Both the position numbers and the translations under genes were made by a program. Positions 1-41,711 of a stretch of DNA of 41,711 nt are shown piece by piece (position 1 is the first letter of the stretch; each line of letters begins with the position of its first letter). The notes beneath the pieces are model-generated. The model was not told the origin of the DNA, searched no databases, and was given only the letters and a program-made list of their open reading frames with translations. Source of the DNA: a virus; IMG/VR virus record IMGVR_UViG_3300046471_000067, positions 1 to 41,711 of that record; one strand, given 5' to 3'.

Positions 1-748
1 CGAACCGGCACATATGGCCGCGACATGCAGCCGTAGCGCGCTTCGTCGGCCACATGGTCCTCTGCCTCTGTATCGAGGTCTTCCGGCCTGTCAGCGTCAT
101 GCTGCAGGATCGGGATGGTTCGAATGAAGTCAGTGCACGTAGAGAACACGAACATGCCTGGCCGTTCGCCGTCGCCCTTCATCCTTGCTCGCATCTGATC
201 CCAGCCGCCGAGAGCGCCCATTTGGGACACTCGCTTGTTGTCAGCGCGGCGGAACAGCACCTTGTAATCGGTGGCCGCGCTCAGCCGCTCATGGATCGAC
301 GGGCCACCGTCTTCGGCGAATGCTGCGGGGTCGAGCACACCGTATGTGATCGTGTCGCCCTTCTCACGCTCCTGAATGCCGCGGCCAACCTCTTCGGCCG
401 TCAGCTTCAAGCCCGTGTTCGGCTCCCCTGGCTTGCAGCCGTACCATTCGCGGTATCGGACCAGAGCGCCGCGAGGAATCTTGCCTGTCTCGGTCTGGTA
501 GTCGTCTTGAGCGATGGCCCACCAACCAACAGAGAAAGGCCGAGCCGATCCCCAGTCCATAGACCGGAAGCGAATCCAGTCCGAAGGGACGGTGAAGGGC
601 CGCACAATGTGCTTGCCCGTGTCCCAGCAATCGAAGAACGCACCTTCAACTGCATTCCAATCGCCATTGAGCCACGCTTTAACCAGCGCTTCAGAGCCGA
701 CGAGATACAGGTTGTTGATGTATTCCGGGTCGTTGTTCATCAGGAGCT
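1..748. repeat. Left copy of the 748-bp diverged terminal repeat
   Basis: Aligns without gaps to 40964-41711 with 16 mismatches (97.9% identity), at window positions 99, 132, 138, 183, 186, 189, 204, 258, 373, 414, 426, 486, 540, 561, 606 and 621. All but 373 are third codon positions of terL. Both copies run off the window, so the full extent of the homology is unknown. Confidence 0.95.
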
Positions 749-3847: not shown

Positions 3848-3924
3848 TGGTTGCGGAGACAAGATTCGAACTTGCGACCTTCAGCTTATGAGGCTGACGA
3901 GCTTCCGGGCTGCTCTACTCCACG
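3848..3924 (-). tRNA. tRNA-Met (CAU), initiator-type features
   Basis: A complete 77-base cloverleaf with encoded CCA. Acceptor CGTGGAG pairs with CTCCGCA leaving C1 opposite A72 unpaired, the hallmark of bacterial initiator tRNA. D-stem GAGC/GCTC has A11:U24, also initiator-type. Anticodon loop CTCATAA (CAU), T-arm GCAAG-TTCGAAT-CTTGT. The anticodon stem is TCAGC/GCTGA, so the three G:C pairs at 29-31:39-41 normal for initiators are replaced by A:U, G:C, C:G. It begins five bases after the stop of the upstream gene, so it must be cut out of a polycistronic transcript. Confidence 0.93.
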
Positions 3925-5520: not shown

Positions 5521-5816
5521 GCCGATGCTCCCTTCGTCTCGACCGCTATTACGCGGCCGTTCTTGAACAGCTTGCGCTCTGCCGATGCGAACTTGGCTTG
5601 CTTCACATTCCCGCCCATGGATGAAATCCCGACGATCGGCGAGTTCAGATAGCCAAGCAGCGCATCCTTGGCGGCCTTGAGCGCTTCGGCTTCGGTCCCA
5701 AAGGTGATGTCGTGCCGGCCGTTGCGAAGAACTCTGTTCTCTGCCTCGTGGACACATCTATAGAATCCGATCCACCCGTGCGGGGTCTTGATGGCTCCGG
5801 CGTCGAATTTGTTCAT
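5517..5816 (-). CDS. Small hypothetical protein
   Basis: 99 residues from the ATG that overlaps the methyltransferase stop (ATGA). Contains TPHGWIGFYRCVHEAENRV and TFGTEAEALKAAKDALLGYL, i.e. strands followed by a helix, and a basic C-terminal part. Not recognised. The extended frame upstream of this ATG lies inside the methyltransferase gene and is disregarded. Its start and stop are both overlapped by neighbours, so it is clearly part of the operon. Confidence 0.75.
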   Translation of the reverse strand: MNKFDAGAIKTPHGWIGFYRCVHEAENRVLRNGRHDITFGTEAEALKAAKDALLGYLNSPIVGISSMGGNVKQAKFASAERKLFKNGRVIAVETKGASA

Positions 5817-7453
5817 GCGGATATCCTCCCCGAGGCTATCAGCCTCTCCATGATGTCGATCCGCTGGCCGATCCAACGCATGGCATTGCAGGCCATGGAA
5901 TTGCCGAGAGCCTTGTAACGAGGGCCGTCAGGTGCGGTGTCCTTGCCGCGCCATGGAACGTTGGTGAAATTGTCGGGGAAGCCCTGTAGGCGCTCGCATT
6001 CGACGGGCATCAGACGGCGAACGGCCCACTCGGTTGCAACTGCGTTAGGACGCTTGGCTCGAAGGGCGTTGGCATGCCCCTCTGTAATTCCGAGCCCCGA
6101 ACGTTCGCCGGCAGACCCTCCGGCCCCTTCCCCGCTACGGTCAAAGCAATCGCTATCGATGCCAAACGCGACAGTCGGTGGCGCACCAGTTTCTATCGTC
6201 GGTGCATGCTGTTCACAAAAGTTGAAGCCAGCGTCCCGGAGGCGAGGAATGCCATTCGCATCGAAGCTCGGATTCTTGGCTTCGCCGGAGCGAGACGCAT
6301 CGCTACGAAGGCCGTATGCGACATAGGACGTTTGCTTCATCCCCGGTTCTGCTGCTAATGCTCCAACGGTCTGCCCGTCTCCTCCGAATAGCCTGACTTC
6401 ATCCCGCGTATTTTGGGCGAACGCTATAGCCTGCGATTGCGGACTTCCTGATCCGAGAGCGCCAGACCTGTCCCAAGTAACCTCTGGATCCTCTCGCGAA
6501 TTGAACGCGATAAGCATCGTTGCCGCGGTTTCCGCTCCCATACCGGGTTGGCGCTCGCCACCAGTCGAGTTCCCACCGGCCGGCAAGGTAGATGCGATTT
6601 CCGCAACAAAGGTCTCGACTTCAAAATCTTGGCGTTGACCATGGGCCGTCAGGGCCGTCGATACGTTGATCGGACCGGACAGGTTGCCGCCGCCGAAAGC
6701 TTGATGGATCAATCCGCCGTCGAGGTCGAAATCGGTCCCGAGTCCGCCACCGCCTGTAGGGTGGATCGCAATTGTGGGGGCAGCTCTTTGCCCCGCTTCT
6801 CGGCGCGGCGCAGAATCCCCGCGCATGCTTTCGGGCTCAAGTAATACCGCTGCGGCACGTCGCCAGTCTCCAAGATATCCGACAAGGAAGACACGGCGCC
6901 GTCGCTGTGGGACGGCACGAGCGAAGTCGTCCACTCGGATATATTGAGCGTCAAGAACCCGGTAGGCGAACCCATACCCGCATTCTTGAACGAAGCTGAG
7001 GAACGTGGCGAAGTCGGCGCTTTCGAGCCCGTCGTCGCCTTCGTCCGCTTCGTCTTGCTCATCATCCGTGTGAGAGGAAAGGACGCCGGGGACGTTTTCC
7101 CAGACGATCCAACGGGCGCGCAGGCGGCGAGCCAGTGCGAGATATTCGAGGGCGAGGTTGCCGCGCGGATCATCCAGTCCGAGACGCTTTCCTGCGACGG
7201 AGAATGATTGGCAAGGTGTTCCTCCGACCAAAAGGTCGATTGGACCTGCGTCGTCGCCGATCGTCGTGAAGTCGCCATGGTTGGGAATTCCGTTCTTTGC
7301 CAGCGGCTCGCCAGGCATGTTGCTTCCATAGTGGTGAGCGAGGACGGCAGAGGGGAAAGCCTCGATCTCGGAGAAGAAGGCAGGCGTCCAGCCAAGGGGA
7401 TGCCAAGCCATGGTCGCGGCCTCGATGCCGCTGCATACTGATCCATATCGCAT
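5813..7453 (-). CDS. C5-cytosine DNA methyltransferase
   Basis: Transfers methyl groups from SAM to cytosine C5. Motif I GSVCSGIEAA (4-13), catalytic motif IV GGTPCQSF with Cys81, motif VI WENVPG (118-123), motif VIII QRRRRVFLVG (183-192), and at the C-terminus ECERLQGFP plus ALGNSM (515-520). At 546 residues it is longer than simple Dcm-like enzymes because the target-recognition region (about 200-485) is enlarged and contains degenerate repeats starting IAF/VAF/VAY (IAFNSRED, IAFAQNTRDE, VAYGLRSD, VAFGIDSD). Strong AAGGAG precedes the ATG. No cognate endonuclease is adjacent, so it is an orphan enzyme, probably protecting phage DNA from host restriction. Target sequence cannot be read from the protein. 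Confidence 0.96.
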   Translation of the reverse strand: MRYGSVCSGIEAATMAWHPLGWTPAFFSEIEAFPSAVLAHHYGSNMPGEPLAKNGIPNHGDFTTIGDDAGPIDLLVGGTPCQSFSVAGKRLGLDDPRGNLALEYLALARRLRARWIVWENVPGVLSSHTDDEQDEADEGDDGLESADFATFLSFVQECGYGFAYRVLDAQYIRVDDFARAVPQRRRRVFLVGYLGDWRRAAAVLLEPESMRGDSAPRREAGQRAAPTIAIHPTGGGGLGTDFDLDGGLIHQAFGGGNLSGPINVSTALTAHGQRQDFEVETFVAEIASTLPAGGNSTGGERQPGMGAETAATMLIAFNSREDPEVTWDRSGALGSGSPQSQAIAFAQNTRDEVRLFGGDGQTVGALAAEPGMKQTSYVAYGLRSDASRSGEAKNPSFDANGIPRLRDAGFNFCEQHAPTIETGAPPTVAFGIDSDCFDRSGEGAGGSAGERSGLGITEGHANALRAKRPNAVATEWAVRRLMPVECERLQGFPDNFTNVPWRGKDTAPDGPRYKALGNSMACNAMRWIGQRIDIMERLIASGRISA

Positions 7454-17619: not shown

Positions 17620-17822
17620 TGACGAAGAGGACGTGGGAGCCCGGGCGCAAGTTGTCGCCGGTGGAAGCACTGACCGAAATCGCGCTCGGGCACCCCGTCT
17701 TCTACCGCCACAAATGGACGCACAACGGATGGGCGCGAGGCTGGCAGATCGCAATGGTGATCGGATCGGCAAACGGCGGCTTCATCTTCGAGGCTAAGAA
17801 AATTCAAGAGGTTGAGCAATGA
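17619..17822 (+). CDS. Small hypothetical protein
   Basis: 67 residues, starting with an ATG overlapping the upstream stop (TGATG). Basic N-terminal (MTKRTWEPGRK) then SPVEALTEIALGHPVFYRH and beta-like WQIAMVIGSANGGFIFEA. Looks like a DUF2829-type small domain in size and Trp pattern, but I cannot confirm. It overlaps the Bet start as ATGA. Confidence 0.72.
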   Translation: MTKRTWEPGRKLSPVEALTEIALGHPVFYRHKWTHNGWARGWQIAMVIGSANGGFIFEAKKIQEVEQ

Positions 17823-18694
17823 ACGCTATCACGAAGACTGAACCGCCCAAGGCGTCCCTGATCGCCACCATGGCCGCGAAGTTCAACATGGAGCCGAAGG
17901 CCTTCGAGGCCACGGTTCGCGCCACGGTCATGCCGGAGCGACACACCAACGAGCAGTTCGCAGCTTTGATGATGGTCGCCAAGGAATACGACCTGAACCC
18001 CTTGCTGAAGGAGATCTATGCCTTCCCGGCCAAGGGTGGCGGCATCGTGCCGATCGTCTCGATCGACGGATGGCTGAACCTGATGAACTCGCACCCAGCC
18101 TTCGACGGCTTGGAGACCGTGTTCGACGATGATGAGAACGGCAATCCGGTCTCGTGCACCTGCAGCATCTACCGCAAGGATCGAAGCCGGCCGATCGTCG
18201 TCACCGAATACCTTTCGGAGTGCTATCGCAACACGGACCCGTGGAAGATGAAGCGCCGGATGCTTCGCCATAAGACCGTCATCCAGTGCAACCGCTATGC
18301 GTTCGGCTTCTCGGGGATCTATGACGACGACGAAGGCGCCAAGATCGCCGAGATGCGCGACGTCTCGCCACAGAAGCCTCCGGCGCCGCCGGCACCCCCC
18401 GCCGAAGAGGTCGAGGCCGCCACCGACGTCATTGATGGTGAAATCGTCGAGCACGACGATCCGGCTGTCGAGGATATAGCGGAGGCCAATGGTTCCGTCA
18501 TCGACGATACCGAGTTCTTCCAGATGCTCGAAGACGCCATGGCCATCGTTTCCGACACTGCCTCACTGGAGGAAGTCTGGACCGAGTTCGACCCGATGGC
18601 TCGCTTTGATGGCAAGTCGAATGGCGAAGTGAACCAGGGCATAGCCAAGGCGATCCGCAAGCGCGCTGAGAAGCGGATCGGCGGTGCGGCATGA
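17819..18694 (+). CDS. bet: Bet/RecT-family single-strand annealing protein
   Basis: Phage Red-beta-type recombinase that anneals complementary single strands. Recognisable blocks: FEATVRATVMPERHTNEQFAAL, AKEYDLNPLLKEIYAFPAKGGGIVPIVSIDGWL (about 60-92), DWCS-like FDDDENGNPVSCTCSIYRK and PWKMKRRMLRHKTVIQCNRYAFGF (about 141-164). A Pro-rich acidic linker (190-235) and a C-terminal helical tail follow. 291 residues is ordinary for Bet. No recognisable lambda-Exo or RecE-type nuclease gene adjoins; the host or an unidentified gene must supply the strand-resecting activity. Confidence 0.94.
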   Translation: MNAITKTEPPKASLIATMAAKFNMEPKAFEATVRATVMPERHTNEQFAALMMVAKEYDLNPLLKEIYAFPAKGGGIVPIVSIDGWLNLMNSHPAFDGLETVFDDDENGNPVSCTCSIYRKDRSRPIVVTEYLSECYRNTDPWKMKRRMLRHKTVIQCNRYAFGFSGIYDDDEGAKIAEMRDVSPQKPPAPPAPPAEEVEAATDVIDGEIVEHDDPAVEDIAEANGSVIDDTEFFQMLEDAMAIVSDTASLEEVWTEFDPMARFDGKSNGEVNQGIAKAIRKRAEKRIGGAA

Positions 18695-20605: not shown

Positions 20606-20797
20606 ATGAGCGAGAACATCCACTTGCGCGAAGCTCTGTCTTCTGTCCGACAGTCGGTGAAGAATGCCCGCGGCGCTATCGAGAGCAACCAAGTTGTCGA
20701 CAAGGACGTCCATGGCACACTGACGCGGGTCATTGCTGCGATTGATGCGGTGCTGTCTGCCCCAGCGCCCCTTTCTAGGATGGAGGGCAGCGAATGA
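20606..20797 (+). CDS. 63-residue hypothetical protein
   Basis: Starts with ATG one base after the previous stop, with AAGG twelve bases upstream. Amphipathic helices (IHLREALSSVRQSVKNARGAI, GTLTRVIAAIDAVLS). Not recognised. Ends overlapping the next gene as ATGA-type. Confidence 0.68.
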   Translation: MSENIHLREALSSVRQSVKNARGAIESNQVVDKDVHGTLTRVIAAIDAVLSAPAPLSRMEGSE

Positions 20798-20970
20798 CCA
20801 GAGCAGCACTCGTCAAGGAATCCGACCTTCACCGAATGGCTAAGATCGCCAAACGCGATGGCGTGCGGGTCGAGGTGGAAGTCAATGGGACAATCGTCCG
20901 TGTTTCCCCCGATATCCCCGATAATCACAGGCCGGCGCCGGTTGCGCGGTATGAGGGCTTTGACCTCTGA
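20794..20970 (+). CDS. 58-residue protein before the integrase, candidate excisionase-type factor
   Basis: A short frame ending in the base that begins the integrase start (TGATG). Sequence MTRAALVKESDLHRMAKIAKR then VRVEVEVNGTIVRVSPDIPD is a helix followed by a beta hairpin, as in small DNA-bending proteins. A short basic protein directly upstream of int is where excisionases are often found; that is the only support for that role. Confidence 0.7.
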   Translation: MTRAALVKESDLHRMAKIAKRDGVRVEVEVNGTIVRVSPDIPDNHRPAPVARYEGFDL

Positions 20971-22004
20971 TGGAGGATATGCCGCGCAAACCATTTCTCT
21001 CGCACGAGACCACACGACACGGAAAGAAAGCTTGGTACTTCAAGCGGAAGGGGAAGCGCGTCCGGCTGCCTGATGTTTATGGCACCGAGGAGTTCAATGC
21101 CGCCTATGAGAAAGCGCTGAGTGGCTCCGAAGTCGCGCCTCTGGTGCCCAAGGCCAAATCAGGCTCCCTGAAGTGGCTCGTCGGCCAATATAAGCGTAGC
21201 GCGGCATGGGCGGAGTTGGCGCCAGGCACTCGGCGCGCGAGGGACAACATCCTGAAAAAAGTTCTCGATGATCCCAAGAACGCCGATGGTCCCTTCGTCG
21301 ATCTGACGAAAGCGAAGATCAAAGCCGGAGTCGACAAGCGCGCTGCCACCCCGAATGCAGCGAACAATTTCCTCAAGACCATGAGCCATTTGTTCAAGTG
21401 GGCGGTCGAGGCCGAGCATCTGGAAGTGAACCCAGTCATTGGCGTCAGCAAGACCAACGTCAAATCTGATGGATTTCACACATGGTCGATCGAGCAGGTC
21501 GAGCAATACCGGGCAAAGCACAAGCTTGGGACAAAGCCCAGACTGGCAATCGATATTCTGCTGTTCCTTGGCCTGCGCCGCGGCGACGCCGTCGTAGTTG
21601 GCCGGCAGCACCTAAAGGACGGGATAATCTCCCTCCGAACGGAAAAGACCAAACAGTGGGTCTACCTGCCTGTCTTCAAGCAACTGCTCGAATCGATCGA
21701 AGCAACGCCGACAGGAGATTTGGCTTTCCTTACGACAGAGCGCGGCAAGCCATTCAGTTCAGGAGCATCGTTTGGGAATTGGTTTGCCAAGCAGTGCAAA
21801 GCGGCAAAACTGCCGGATGAGTGCAGAGCCCACGGATTGCGGAAGGCTGGTGCGACGATAGCAGCCGACGAAGGCGCAACAGCGCATGAGCTGATGGCGA
21901 TGTTCGGGTGGTCGCGCTTGGCGATGGCTGAGATTTATACGAAGGAAGCCGACAAGAAAAAGCTCGCGAGAGGCGCATCAGAACGCTTGTCGAACAGAAT
22001 GTAG
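20970..22004 (+). CDS. int: Tyrosine integrase
   Basis: Catalyses integration and excision at att. 344 residues: an N-terminal arm-binding-like part (RHGKKAWYFKRKGKRVRLPD), core-binding domain (about 60-165), catalytic domain with Arg203 (LGLRRGDAV), Lys in TEKTK (225-228), HGLR with His288 and Arg291, Trp314 (MFGW) where most integrases have His, and nucleophile Tyr323 (EIYTKEA). Trp at that place is also found in Cre. It ends the early right operon and lies next to the candidate attP. ATG overlaps the upstream gene. Confidence 0.94.
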   Translation: MEDMPRKPFLSHETTRHGKKAWYFKRKGKRVRLPDVYGTEEFNAAYEKALSGSEVAPLVPKAKSGSLKWLVGQYKRSAAWAELAPGTRRARDNILKKVLDDPKNADGPFVDLTKAKIKAGVDKRAATPNAANNFLKTMSHLFKWAVEAEHLEVNPVIGVSKTNVKSDGFHTWSIEQVEQYRAKHKLGTKPRLAIDILLFLGLRRGDAVVVGRQHLKDGIISLRTEKTKQWVYLPVFKQLLESIEATPTGDLAFLTTERGKPFSSGASFGNWFAKQCKAAKLPDECRAHGLRKAGATIAADEGATAHELMAMFGWSRLAMAEIYTKEADKKKLARGASERLSNRM

Positions 22005-22127
22005 GTCGCACCTTCGGCCCTGTGTGGTCCCACCTTTAATGAAATCAATTACTTGTAGTATGGTTTGGCGACCCCTGCAGTTGTGCGAGAAGTGGCTGAA
22101 AACAATATCTTACAGTAAGGTGGGACT
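22004..22127. other. Candidate attachment site (attP) with arm-type repeats
   Basis: GGTCGCACCTT (22004-22014) and GGTCCCACCTT (22026-22036) are direct copies 22 bp apart; the inverted copy AAGGTGGGAC (22117-22126) lies downstream. Midway is TGGCGACCCCTGCAG (22066-22080), whose reverse complement ends GGGGTCGCCA like the 3' end of a tRNA, a common att core. The site is directly downstream of int. Core assignment is tentative, the repeats are certain. Confidence 0.55.
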
Positions 22128-22193
22128 GAAAGGCGTCCCTTTGATATCATTGGGGAATTGAGATCGTTCGGTCTTACCATTGACGCCCTTCGG

Positions 22194-22703: not shown

Positions 22704-23915
22704 TCAAAACGACTGCAACAGCGTCTGGAACTGAGACTTGACGATCCCGGCGGAGAAAGTAGCGCCGGGCGTATTCGGGTGAATGCCGTCACCAGCGATG
22801 TAGGTCGCAAAGTTTCCTGAGTTGAAAATCTGGTCGTTTCCGTCCCACACCTTCATGCGGGAAGCGTCCTTCACGGCATTAAAGGCATTGAGGAATGCGG
22901 AGTTGTGCGCTGCATCGACGGGTGCGCCAGCCGTTTTAAAGCCAGTGAAACCGAGGATGATTGCATTCGGTTGATCGGCCATCAGTCGTGTGATGATCGT
23001 CTGCCAATTGGCCTGCACAGTCGCCACCGTCTGCGTGCCATCGTTGATGGTGTTGTAGATGATGACCAAGTCCATATCGGACCCGTTCTGCGTAAAGTCG
23101 CCAGCGAGCGCTCGCGACAGGAAAGACTGACCGGAGCTGACCGCAACAGCACCTTGACCGCCGCGACCCTGCAGGAACATGCCCGGCAGTCCCATCAGCT
23201 CGCGCAGGCGCACCGGGAACGTGTTGCAGTGGTCATAGTCGGAAGCATCGACATATCCCCCGGTCGTGATGGTGTAGAGGCCCTCTGTGTAACTGTCTCC
23301 GAAGATCATCGACTTCGGAAGCGCTGGCAGAGGAAGAGCGCTGATTGTGTCGATCGCAGCGACGTTGAAGCCTGCCACCACCTGGCCGCTGTCGATATAG
23401 AACTCGATGTCTCGAACGGCCTTGTTGGGGAAGGTGAACTTCCGATATCCGAATGTTCCTGACGTGTGATATATCGTCGGCAAGAACGCGCCGTTGACCT
23501 TGATTGTCATGGCACCGCCATCCGAACATACAAAGGCATCGAACGCCGTCGCATTGATGCGGAAGCGATACCCGCCGCCATTCCCTGTGCCGATCGTATA
23601 GTCGTTCGGGTTGTTCGCCTTGGCGACCGTGTAGGGAATGCCGTAGGCAGTCAGCGTTACAAAGGTCAGACCAAGCCGGGTCATGGCTGCGTCGAGCGGT
23701 TTCAATGTCGCCGTCTTGTCGGTCGCATTGTTCAGCGTCGAGTTCGCGAAGCCGGTCCCTTCCGAGTAGGTCGGGATGTCTGAGGATATCGGAACGGAAC
23801 CACCGGCAGCCATCGCGGCAAGGATCGATTGGGCCTTCGCGCGGTAGGGTCCACCCCCACCGCCCTTATCCTGGGCGAAGGCAGTCCCAAGACCTATTCC
23901 AATTGCTAAAGGCAT
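22704..23915 (-). CDS. SGNH/GDSL-family hydrolase, putative tail-associated deacetylase/esterase
   Basis: 403 residues. An N-terminal beta-rich part (about 1-195, with Gly-rich start and GYRFRINATAFDAF...) precedes an SGNH hydrolase: block I IFGDSYTEG (Ser208), block II GRGGQGA (Gly253), block III IIYNTINDG (Asn291), block V DGIHPN (Asp376, His379). Such enzymes on phage tails can deacetylate or cleave surface glycans during adsorption. AAGGGGGT precedes the ATG. It follows the spike-base gene by a few bases, consistent with a spike-attached enzyme. Substrate unknown. Confidence 0.88.
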   Translation of the reverse strand: MPLAIGIGLGTAFAQDKGGGGGPYRAKAQSILAAMAAGGSVPISSDIPTYSEGTGFANSTLNNATDKTATLKPLDAAMTRLGLTFVTLTAYGIPYTVAKANNPNDYTIGTGNGGGYRFRINATAFDAFVCSDGGAMTIKVNGAFLPTIYHTSGTFGYRKFTFPNKAVRDIEFYIDSGQVVAGFNVAAIDTISALPLPALPKSMIFGDSYTEGLYTITTGGYVDASDYDHCNTFPVRLRELMGLPGMFLQGRGGQGAVAVSSGQSFLSRALAGDFTQNGSDMDLVIIYNTINDGTQTVATVQANWQTIITRLMADQPNAIILGFTGFKTAGAPVDAAHNSAFLNAFNAVKDASRMKVWDGNDQIFNSGNFATYIAGDGIHPNTPGATFSAGIVKSQFQTLLQSF

Positions 23916-36676: not shown

Positions 36677-37837
36677 TCAGGTGTCGAGAGCGGCGCTCAC
36701 GAAGCCAGTGACAACGCCCCACTGCTTGAGCGCAGTGCCGTCCATCGGATGCTTCTTGAACATCTTCGATGCACCGTAGGCCATTTCAGTGCCGACGCCC
36801 TGAATGAAGCCATAGTCGTCTTCCTTGCGGAAGGTTGGCTTGGCCATCTGGCCCCAGCCCAGGACCGCTGCCTGCTGCCCGCAGAGGAAGACAGGTTCGA
36901 CGCGAGAAGCCGATCCGCCGGCCGTGGTCAGTGTGGTCCACACCTGAGTGACGTACTGCGATATTTCCGGGATCTCACGGATGATCACGCCCTGATAAAT
37001 CAGATCGCCATCCTGGAAGATCGGATTGCTGTCCATCCCCTTGCCTTCACGGGCGCGAGCGTCCTTGTTGGCTGCAATGATGGTTGCGTCGAGGCCGATA
37101 TCACGGAACGCATTCGAGCCGACGAACAGCACGTAGTACTGATAGCCGTCTGACGTTTTGAATGGACGGATGGACGGCACCGCATTCTTTGCCAGCCGCT
37201 TGAGCTGCGTGACGATAGGTGCGGACAGCTTGTCGTTCGCTGCCGTGATGTTGCCCAGTGCTGTCGCATGCGTGGCGTTGTAGTTGCTGACCGACTTGCC
37301 GTAGAGGACCCGATCGGAGTTGTCAGCGTTCCACGTATTCTTCTGCGCAGCCGTCGCGTTTGCGTAAAGAACGCCATTGACGGTTTGCCCATCATCGGAA
37401 CCGAGCCCGGAAGGAGCGGCTTCAGATGGGAGCGCCATGAATGCGTCGATGAGATCGTCGCGTTGACGTTCGGTGCCCCAATCGGAGAGCAGCGGCTTGG
37501 CTTCGCCGAAGAGATCAGCCGAATCCTTCTGCTGGTCGCTCTTCTTCACGGTGACGGCATTGCGGGCCCAGTCGATCCACAGACGCATGCCGTAGTTATC
37601 GATCTTGTCTTCGTTGCCGACGAGCGTTCCAGATCCCTTGCCCTTGCCGCGAAGCTTGGTGACGATCGGAATATTCATCTGCTCGCCGCCGTTTTTCAAT
37701 TCCTGGCGGATGCGGATGATAGAGGTGAGTGCTGTCCCCATGTAGGGAGAGAACATGTTTTCGCGAACGAATTCGCGATTGATTTCCTTCGTATAGACAA
37801 CAAGCTTGTTGTTGTCCTGAACCGTAGTGACGGCCAT
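36677..37837 (-). CDS. Major capsid protein, N4 gp56 family
   Basis: 386 residues. Pattern of the N4-gp56/DUF4043 capsid family: FVRENMFSPYMG, IPIVTKLRGKGKGSGTLVGN, DKIDNYGMRLWIDWARNAV, KPLLSDWGTERQRDDLID, and a conserved C-terminal domain (RVEPVFLCGQQAAVLGW, EDDYGFIQGVGTEMAYGA). Forms the HK97-fold shell. ATG with weak AAGG; scaffold gene is directly upstream. Confidence 0.93.
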   Translation of the reverse strand: MAVTTVQDNNKLVVYTKEINREFVRENMFSPYMGTALTSIIRIRQELKNGGEQMNIPIVTKLRGKGKGSGTLVGNEDKIDNYGMRLWIDWARNAVTVKKSDQQKDSADLFGEAKPLLSDWGTERQRDDLIDAFMALPSEAAPSGLGSDDGQTVNGVLYANATAAQKNTWNADNSDRVLYGKSVSNYNATHATALGNITAANDKLSAPIVTQLKRLAKNAVPSIRPFKTSDGYQYYVLFVGSNAFRDIGLDATIIAANKDARAREGKGMDSNPIFQDGDLIYQGVIIREIPEISQYVTQVWTTLTTAGGSASRVEPVFLCGQQAAVLGWGQMAKPTFRKEDDYGFIQGVGTEMAYGASKMFKKHPMDGTALKQWGVVTGFVSAALDT

Positions 37838-38857: not shown

Positions 38858-40885
38858 TTAAGGATGGCGGCTCCTATCTTGCGATGCCTGCTTCATCTGG
38901 TCCTGATGGACGAACATGCGCTCGTCGCGGGATGCTGAGGCTTCGCTGATCTGATGGGCGGCTTCGACAGGCATGAGGGTCGTTTCCAACCTGATCTTGT
39001 CCGTCTCGGCTGCGGTCTTCTGTGTGCCTGCATCCTTGTTCCGGATTTCGGCAAGGGCCTTGGCAACATCGATATCGGTAGGGCCCGCGTCCTGCTGTGG
39101 CGCCCCTTGCGGTTGGCCGGCAGCACGGGCGTCGGCGATGGCCTTGATGGCCTGCGCTTCTTTCAGCCTGGCCGACGCGTTCAGTTCAGCAATCTCTGCC
39201 TGCTGCCCAGCTTGCGCGACAGGGTCAGGCTGCGATGCTTGCGCCTTCGCCTTCTCCAGTATTTCGAGAGAGCGTTTCTTGACATCGAAGTCGAGCGACG
39301 AAAGCTCGATCAACAGCTCTGGCGGAACCTGAACGCCCTTCTGCGCCAGGATGGACAGCGTGTCATAGGCGTCCTGCTGCATGTTGATCGTGTCCGGGCC
39401 TTCGTCGATGATGATATCGACATCAAGCGAGCCAAGCGCATTGATCAGAGCCGGCAGTCCTGTGTTCGGGTCAATACCCATCTGGTTGACCGCGAAGAAC
39501 TGGGAAATCTTCTGGTCATCAGTGACGCGGATCCAGCGCTCAGACTGCCAATACTGTTCGATCGCGTTCCAGATCGCTCGATAGACACGGATCTTCCAAT
39601 TGCGATTGTGGAGCAAGAACGGGCCGAGCTCGGTAACACGCGCATTCTGAAGACGGCGCAGAGCAACGCCTGACAGGTTGTCGACATTGTCGCCGCTGCC
39701 CGTGAGGCTGATCCGCTTGGCGCTAAGCTTCTTGTCGAACCACTCCAGCATTGAGGAAAGGGCCGTGATCTCTTGCCCCTTTGCATTGTCGTCGAACTGC
39801 GGAGGCTCGGTGCCCGTTGGATAGGTGATCACGCCATCTGGGCGTGATGCCTCCATCCTGATTGCGTTGATGTCCGCGCCTGTGCCTGCTGGGATGATGA
39901 CGCGGCGAGAATTGATGGTGTGCTGCGTCTTGCTCTGAGCGTTGTTAAAGCCCTGCTGCAGCGGCTTGATGTTACGAATGAAACCGTACCGGTCGCCGTC
40001 CTGATCGATCGACGAAGAATACATGATGTACTTGCACAGGCCCTTGCCGCGTTCATCGGTGAGGAACGACTTGCCTTCAGCCAGCACGGTGGAGCCCGTG
40101 TAAATGCAATAGTACCAGTGACCGCCCTTCAGATACCAATGATCGACGATGCGGATACGGCTGCTGGTTTCGCCATCAGAGAACCACTTGGCATCACTGT
40201 CAGGATTGCTGGTGAGTTCCGAGCCAGTCTCAAGTGACGCGCGCAGCTCAGCTTCCTTGTCGGGAAACATCTCGACGGCTTCTTCGATATCGGCCCACTT
40301 GGCTATGCCCATGAACCGAGCGTCGGAGAAATCCATCTTGAGCGAGCGCGGGTCATAGAAGAACGACGACGGATCAACCTTCGTGAGGCCGACATCCGGG
40401 TCCTGGTGATCACCTTCGATGATCGTAATCTCGACGCCACCGATCCCGTCGATCGCACCATTCATCCCGCTCTCAGACGAGATAGCGCCCCAATCCTGCG
40501 TGTCGCAGACGTAGCGCAACACGGAAGTCGCCAGTTCTGCCCCTTCGTCCTGCTTTGGGGTGCGAGGATAGGCGCGCGGGTCCTGCTTCTGCTGCTCAAG
40601 AGTGCCGATGATCGAGTTGATGATTGGCTCTATCTCATTCACTGGAATGAGCGGCTGGTTACGCTGGCGGGATGTCTTCTGCTGCTTCTCGGTGAACTGA
40701 GAGCCGTGATAGAACCGGCGGGCATCCTTCTGCTCGCTGATTTCGTCGCTCTTGGTGCCGAGGTAGCTCAGAAACTGCTTCTTGAGCATGCCGTGCGACA
40801 GATAGGCGGGCGTGACATCATCGGCAGCCGGGGCCGCGGTCGGGGCGCTCCCCTGCGAATAACCTGTTTGGTTTGCTGCCAACAT
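38858..40885 (-). CDS. Portal protein, P22 type
   Basis: 675 residues, close to P22 portal (725). N-terminal part with LPV-like PLIPVNEIEPIINSIIGTLEQQ, an aromatic core (GSQFTEKQQKTSRQRNQP), barrel DYL motifs, and a long helical, Gln/Ala-rich C-terminal (AEIAELNASARLKEAQAIKA, ending QMKQASQDRSRHP). Forms the dodecameric ring DNA passes through. The ATG overlaps the terL stop (TAATG). The following gap of 118 bases to scaffold holds nothing recognised. Confidence 0.92.
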   Translation of the reverse strand: MLAANQTGYSQGSAPTAAPAADDVTPAYLSHGMLKKQFLSYLGTKSDEISEQKDARRFYHGSQFTEKQQKTSRQRNQPLIPVNEIEPIINSIIGTLEQQKQDPRAYPRTPKQDEGAELATSVLRYVCDTQDWGAISSESGMNGAIDGIGGVEITIIEGDHQDPDVGLTKVDPSSFFYDPRSLKMDFSDARFMGIAKWADIEEAVEMFPDKEAELRASLETGSELTSNPDSDAKWFSDGETSSRIRIVDHWYLKGGHWYYCIYTGSTVLAEGKSFLTDERGKGLCKYIMYSSSIDQDGDRYGFIRNIKPLQQGFNNAQSKTQHTINSRRVIIPAGTGADINAIRMEASRPDGVITYPTGTEPPQFDDNAKGQEITALSSMLEWFDKKLSAKRISLTGSGDNVDNLSGVALRRLQNARVTELGPFLLHNRNWKIRVYRAIWNAIEQYWQSERWIRVTDDQKISQFFAVNQMGIDPNTGLPALINALGSLDVDIIIDEGPDTINMQQDAYDTLSILAQKGVQVPPELLIELSSLDFDVKKRSLEILEKAKAQASQPDPVAQAGQQAEIAELNASARLKEAQAIKAIADARAAGQPQGAPQQDAGPTDIDVAKALAEIRNKDAGTQKTAAETDKIRLETTLMPVEAAHQISEASASRDERMFVHQDQMKQASQDRSRHP

Positions 40886-41711
40886 TAGTAGACCATCCCA
40901 TCGCCCGATGTTTCGTCAGTGCGCGCTCTGTAGTCGTTCATCTTCGAAGACTTCTTCACCTCACGAACCGGCACATATGGCCGCGACATGCAGCCGTAGC
41001 GCGCTTCGTCGGCCACATGGTCCTCTGCCTCTGTATCGAGGTCTTCCGGCCTGTCAGCGTCGTGCTGCAGGATCGGGATGGTTCGAATGAAGTCCGTGCA
41101 GGTAGAGAACACGAACATGCCTGGCCGTTCGCCGTCGCCCTTCATTCTGGCCCGCATCTGATCCCAACCGCCGAGAGCGCCCATTTGGGACACTCGCTTG
41201 TTGTCAGCGCGGCGGAACAGAACCTTGTAATCGGTGGCCGCGCTCAGCCGCTCATGGATCGACGGGCCACCGTCTTCGGCGAATGCTGCGGGGTCGAGCA
41301 CACCGTATGTGATCGTGTCGCCCTTCTCACGCTCCAGAATGCCGCGGCCAACCTCTTCGGCCGTCAGCTTCAAGCCTGTGTTCGGCTCTCCTGGCTTGCA
41401 GCCGTACCATTCGCGGTATCGGACCAGAGCGCCGCGAGGAATCTTGCCCGTCTCGGTCTGGTAGTCGTCTTGAGCGATGGCCCACCAACCAACAGAGAAA
41501 GGACGAGCCGATCCCCAGTCCATCGACCGGAAGCGAATCCAGTCCGAAGGGACGGTGAAGGGCCGCACGATGTGCTTGCCCGTTTCCCAGCAATCGAAGA
41601 ACGCACCTTCAACTGCATTCCAATCGCCATTGAGCCACGCTTTAACCAGCGCTTCAGAGCCGACGAGATACAGGTTGTTGATGTATTCCGGGTCGTTGTT
41701 CATCAGGAGCT
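40885..41711 (-). CDS. terL: Terminase large subunit, second allele, N-terminus cut by window edge
   Basis: The last 274 codons of TerL: the end of the ATPase part (from about residue 209), then nuclease domain with SMDWGSARPF, TYGVLDPAAF and FSTCTDFIRTIP, ending TSGDGMVY and TAA overlapping portal ATG. In its overlap with the other edge copy it differs at 16 bases, two replacements. The ATPase N-terminal half of this allele is outside the window. Function certain. Confidence 0.95.
   Translation of the reverse strand, partial: LLMNNDPEYINNLYLVGSEALVKAWLNGDWNAVEGAFFDCWETGKHIVRPFTVPSDWIRFRSMDWGSARPFSVGWWAIAQDDYQTETGKIPRGALVRYREWYGCKPGEPNTGLKLTAEEVGRGILEREKGDTITYGVLDPAAFAEDGGPSIHERLSAATDYKVLFRRADNKRVSQMGALGGWDQMRARMKGDGERPGMFVFSTCTDFIRTIPILQHDADRPEDLDTEAEDHVADEARYGCMSRPYVPVREVKKSSKMNDYRARTDETSGDGMVY
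40964..41711. repeat. Right copy of the 748-bp diverged terminal repeat
   Basis: Counterpart of 1-748, within terL. The homology may extend farther outside the window, and its limits are set only by the window edges. See the finding on the terminal alleles for meaning. Confidence 0.95.

Follow-up and report, generated by a model that had tools for sequence, protein, structure and literature searches.

Two terL alleles at the ends of one contig: a P22/Sf6-like phage genome of Rhizobiales, probably circular and assembled from co-occurring strains

Temperate podoviruses of the P22/Sf6 type have in common with the DNA analysed here a P22 portal, an Sf6-like terS, a capsid protein of family PF13252, an integrase with a tRNA attP, a CI-like repressor and a Bet annealing protein, whereas the integrase and the attachment site found in this DNA are of a Rhizobiales type. 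The DNA in question, hereafter the window, corresponds to the full length of a public virus record, IMGVR_UViG_3300046471_000067, of 41,711 bases, and most likely represents a temperate P22/Sf6-like podovirus of Rhizobiales, circular or circularly permuted. The record terminates within terL at either side. As to the manner in which contigs end, de Bruijn assemblers are known to break where multiple paths are met and to leave overlaps of length maxK (COBRA paper, PMC10914622).

On the minus strand terL (1-1370), assigned to the PHROG terminase large subunit, has its start codon at 1370 and crosses the closure into 40963-40885, these last 79 bases (40885-40963, minus strand), which specify the C-terminus and the stop, being present in a single copy only. 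A 3' portion of the gene is instead found at both contig ends, as allele A on the left (1-748) and as allele B of the same locus on the right (40964-41711), both on the minus strand. The same strand carries the Sf6-like small terminase terS (1348-1833; PF20901, E 1.5e-43; phrog_1482), the P22-like portal (38858-40885; PF16510, E 7.9e-101), which on the circle follows terL immediately downstream, and the major capsid protein (36677-37837; PF13252, phrog_334); further genes encode a head-closure protein, tail proteins, a CI-like repressor, a Bet protein and a DnaB-like helicase.

A comparison with the phage collection revealed no close relative of positions 1-25000 of the window. Within the gene of the Bet-like annealing protein (17819-18694) a stretch of 509 bp (17855-18363) matches, at 82.7% DNA identity, the recombinase gene found in two phages of Synechococcus (OM868082 and PP438429), the rest of 1-25000 yielding no match to these two phages at that sensitivity; this likeness suggests that the gene may have been exchanged between phages of very different hosts. 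The phage carries a tRNA-Met (CAT) of its own (3848-3924, minus strand), which matches at 88% over 74 bp a tRNA-Met (L098:2475-2551) that lies ~7.5 kb from a related integrase in Shinella zoogloeoides. The 546-aa protein encoded by 5813-7453 has a C5 cytosine methylase domain (PF00145) and an N-terminal part with a further match, to a PHROG called DNA primase, and the GDSL lipase/esterase-like protein (PF13472) encoded by 22704-23915, adjoining the tail genes, is possibly a surface-polymer esterase.

Alignment of 1-748 with 40964-41711 gave no gaps and 16 mismatches (97.9% identity), in agreement with the first-pass annotation, which had reported a gap-free end match of 748 bases with 16 differences. 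The overlap runs precisely to the two contig ends, and BLAST of the window ends produced neither a longer nor a gapped overlap. The mismatches are located at positions 99, 132, 138, 183, 186, 189, 204, 258, 373, 414, 426, 486, 540, 561, 606 and 621, the copies being identical over their initial 98 and final 127 bases. In the minus-strand terL frame, 15 of the 16 fall on the third codon position and only two alter the protein, namely the one at 373, a second codon position, that causes a Q/L change and the one at 621 that causes a D/E change; both counts are those that had been given before. If errors were uniformly distributed, the binomial probability of finding at least 15 of 16 at third positions would be p = 7.7e-7, and the NG86 estimates for the two terL copies are dN = 0.0035 and dS = 0.085, corresponding to a dN/dS of ~0.04. 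Furthermore, both copies are about equally near to 16 relatives (e.g., 609 vs 611 matches of 748 with L005); the base present in the relatives at single sites is carried by either copy, and when the ancestral allele was sought by means of these relatives neither copy proved closer. The possibility that the end copies differ merely through sequencing or assembly errors in one of them is contradicted by the third-position bias and the dN/dS as well as by this equal closeness, and is left with almost no probability. Judged from their sequences, the end copies are two natural alleles whose divergence took place under purifying selection, a premise resting on the codon-position bias, the dN/dS and the equal distance to the 16 relatives, and the earlier attribution of the two ends to two real genomes under such selection is thereby borne out. 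The terL microdiversity in the sample would amount to ~2%; an exact 31-mer from the shared terL region matched no other contig among the viral_contigs records open to the search, from which very near ones may be missing, so that no third haplotype was read.

Removal of one copy of the overlap leaves a circle of 40,963 bp, on which terL is a single open frame of 1449 nt (482 codons plus stop) whichever allele is used, both closures having been tried. The closed circle contains one intact gene set, ordered as in the relative G003; in that contig, homologues of genes located on either half of the window follow one another in a matching circular order, and terL, at mid-contig, is uninterrupted. 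The window holds one integrase and no repeated sequence other than the 748-bp overlap, a count to be read with the proviso that a stretch of one unit with attP at its centre would not necessarily contain two sets. The record probably comprises the whole of a 40,963-bp circular genome, and we consider it very probable that the contig derives from one circular, or permuted and terminally redundant, P22/Sf6-like phage of which at least two strains, present together, went into the assembly; headful packaging would be expected from the membership in the P22/Sf6 family.

The sequence of events envisaged is as follows. The sample would have contained at least two strains, and the assembler, starting on the terL allele of strain A, would have gone once round the 40,963-bp circle, taken the terL allele of strain B on its return and halted at the k-mer where both strains become identical again; the 748-bp repeat would then represent one locus from two genomes and not two copies on one molecule. 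In a k-mer graph built from the two implied strains, exactly two branch vertices are present at k=127 and the convergent one is 622-748, i.e., the right window end, the last 127 bases of which (41585-41711) are identical to 622-748 and constitute the strain-convergence vertex of the k=127 de Bruijn graph. When the 16 differences are placed randomly, a terminal identical run of exactly 127 bases occurs in 0.12% of the trials, and in 2% of them the run equals one of eight k values in common use. The cause of the left end is less clear because, when tried as a k=127 divergence vertex, this end did not match and was found to lie 29 bases inside it; with its 98 identical bases it is 1 base away from the k=99 divergence vertex, which starts one base before position 1, and a coverage gap, a third variant or a carry-over from k=99 must be assumed. 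We infer both the identity of the assembler and its k; JGI assemblies presumably use k=127, as is also supported by the 127-bp ends seen here, and a limited literature search did not find the JGI k-mer list.

Comparable ends are met elsewhere. Two relatives, G006 and G025, have exact self-overlaps of 127 bp at their ends and G003 has one of 66 bp; among 39 short whole contigs of terL relatives no end overlap was detected. The genomes of microviruses are circular, and of 80 such contigs (L126-L205) many display exact end overlaps and ~15 display mismatched ones. The end overlaps of L156 (677 bp), L143 (347 bp) and L137 (314 bp) contain 25, 23 and 19 differences, of which 18, 18 and 15, respectively, are at one codon position, and in L178 and L185 the terminal 127 bases are identical; some of the shorter overlaps whose outermost bases include mismatches (L129, L204) may have been lengthened by chance. 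A long self-match of L015 was dropped as an artefact due to the overlapping halves of a 4.4-kb contig. The microvirus survey indicates that circular genomes from mixed populations regularly give rise to mismatched overlaps showing a bias in codon position and, ~1 in 5 of these contigs being mismatched at the ends, that circularity tests relying on exact repeats would miss them; with an end test that tolerates mismatches, more complete genomes may be recovered.

The tyrosine integrase (20970-22004, plus strand) is 66-85% identical to integrases adjoining tRNA-Arg(TCT) in Rhizobiales genomes and is followed by the attP core TGGCGACCCCTGCAG (22066-22080), whose 15 bp are the 3' end of tRNA-Arg(TCT). 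Integrated relatives are homologous to the integrase region up to 22080, where the match breaks off inside the 3' end of the tRNA-Arg(TCT) gene on their side, and what comes after the core in the window is phage DNA, the P' arm, and neither tRNA nor host sequence. The stretch formed by integrase, core and P' arm aligns unbroken to G025 (L122) over 20782-22159 and to G024 (L124) over 21954-22178, and no host DNA, attL or attR was found upon examination of the window. Judging from this anatomy, an attP belonging to the phage itself is located at the 22.0-kb point, which is not a join of unrelated sequences; the tandem-prophage join that the first-pass annotation had placed near 22.0 kb gives way to a native site whose P arm, core and P' arm are continuous in another contig.

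The same anatomy bears on the view that the window stems from a tandem double lysogen, in which two ~98% identical prophages would be inserted head-to-tail at tRNA-Arg, the window extending from one terL through a central attP to the other terL. A dilysogen of this kind would show an identical gene order with an attP-type site in the middle, the contig could likewise stop at a common k-mer, and the integrase family does integrate at tRNA-Arg; nevertheless, neither host DNA nor attL or attR occurs in the window, both gene sets are carried by G003 with its matching 66-bp ends, and short-read assembly would tend to collapse two copies that are 98% identical. Adjacent integrase copies are also lacking in the genomes that carry it, an argument of little weight since short-read assemblies could hide tandems: ten close cases with this integrase have one high-identity copy each, and in a search for tandem copies among 395 genomes of one family 17 had a match, none of them adjacent, the only double consisting of two diverged copies ~455 kb apart. 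The tandem arrangement is thus judged very unlikely. Were it genuine, the window would be a hybrid, its early and its late genes stemming from different phages, and to this outcome an equally small probability is assigned; the related claim that the genes to the left and to the right of 22.0 kb belong to different phages has obtained no positive support, the attP being continuous and the occurrence of both gene sets in G003 making two phages unnecessary.

The element G024 (L206/L207, IMGVR_UViG_3300046660_000139, 40835 bp) has near one end an integrase-core-tRNA-Arg junction with host DNA, and its other end stops exactly at a 127-mer copy of the integrase-core stretch, next to a P' arm of the phage; the element seems to be present in its sample both integrated and in an attP form. 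The suggestion that non-integrated DNA of a related element is present there would be in line with an origin of the window from concatemeric replicating DNA or from a recombined mixed infection, that is from one real molecule bearing both alleles ~41 kb apart, and P22-like phages produce concatemers on replication. However, concatemers normally repeat one allele, a hybrid is not required by the sequence and the right end is an assembler vertex, and we regard such an origin as extremely improbable.

A circular assembly from a mixed population, which the first-pass annotation had put forward as an alternative, is on the contrary strongly favoured. Its basis is made up of observations, namely the two alleles, the 127-base identity at the vertex, the closure of terL, the anatomy of an attP devoid of host DNA, the presence of one gene set in one circular order, the exact 127-bp closures in the relatives and the mismatched ends in the microviruses. 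Mismatched contig ends such as these are not to be taken for two prophages. In the case of one circle assembled from mixed strains, a test for exact terminal repeats would miss the completeness of the 40,963-bp genome because two strain alleles would have been walked, whence the mismatches.

The mismatched end overlap is most likely an ordinary effect of assembly. Like the self-circular metagenomic viral contigs (COBRA, PMC10914622), the window has overlapping ends and a terminal identity equal to a common largest k (127), but unlike those contigs, whose overlap is of maxK length, it overlaps over 748 bp with 16 mismatches. The mismatched overlaps of the microviruses (L137, L143, L156, L178 and L185) are, like that of the window, gap-free up to both contig ends; in the longer ones, as in the window, the differences are mostly at one codon position, and in some of them 126-127 identical bases are likewise present at one end. 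On the other hand, the microviruses are single-stranded circles of ~4.5 kb, whereas the window is 41 kb of double-stranded DNA.
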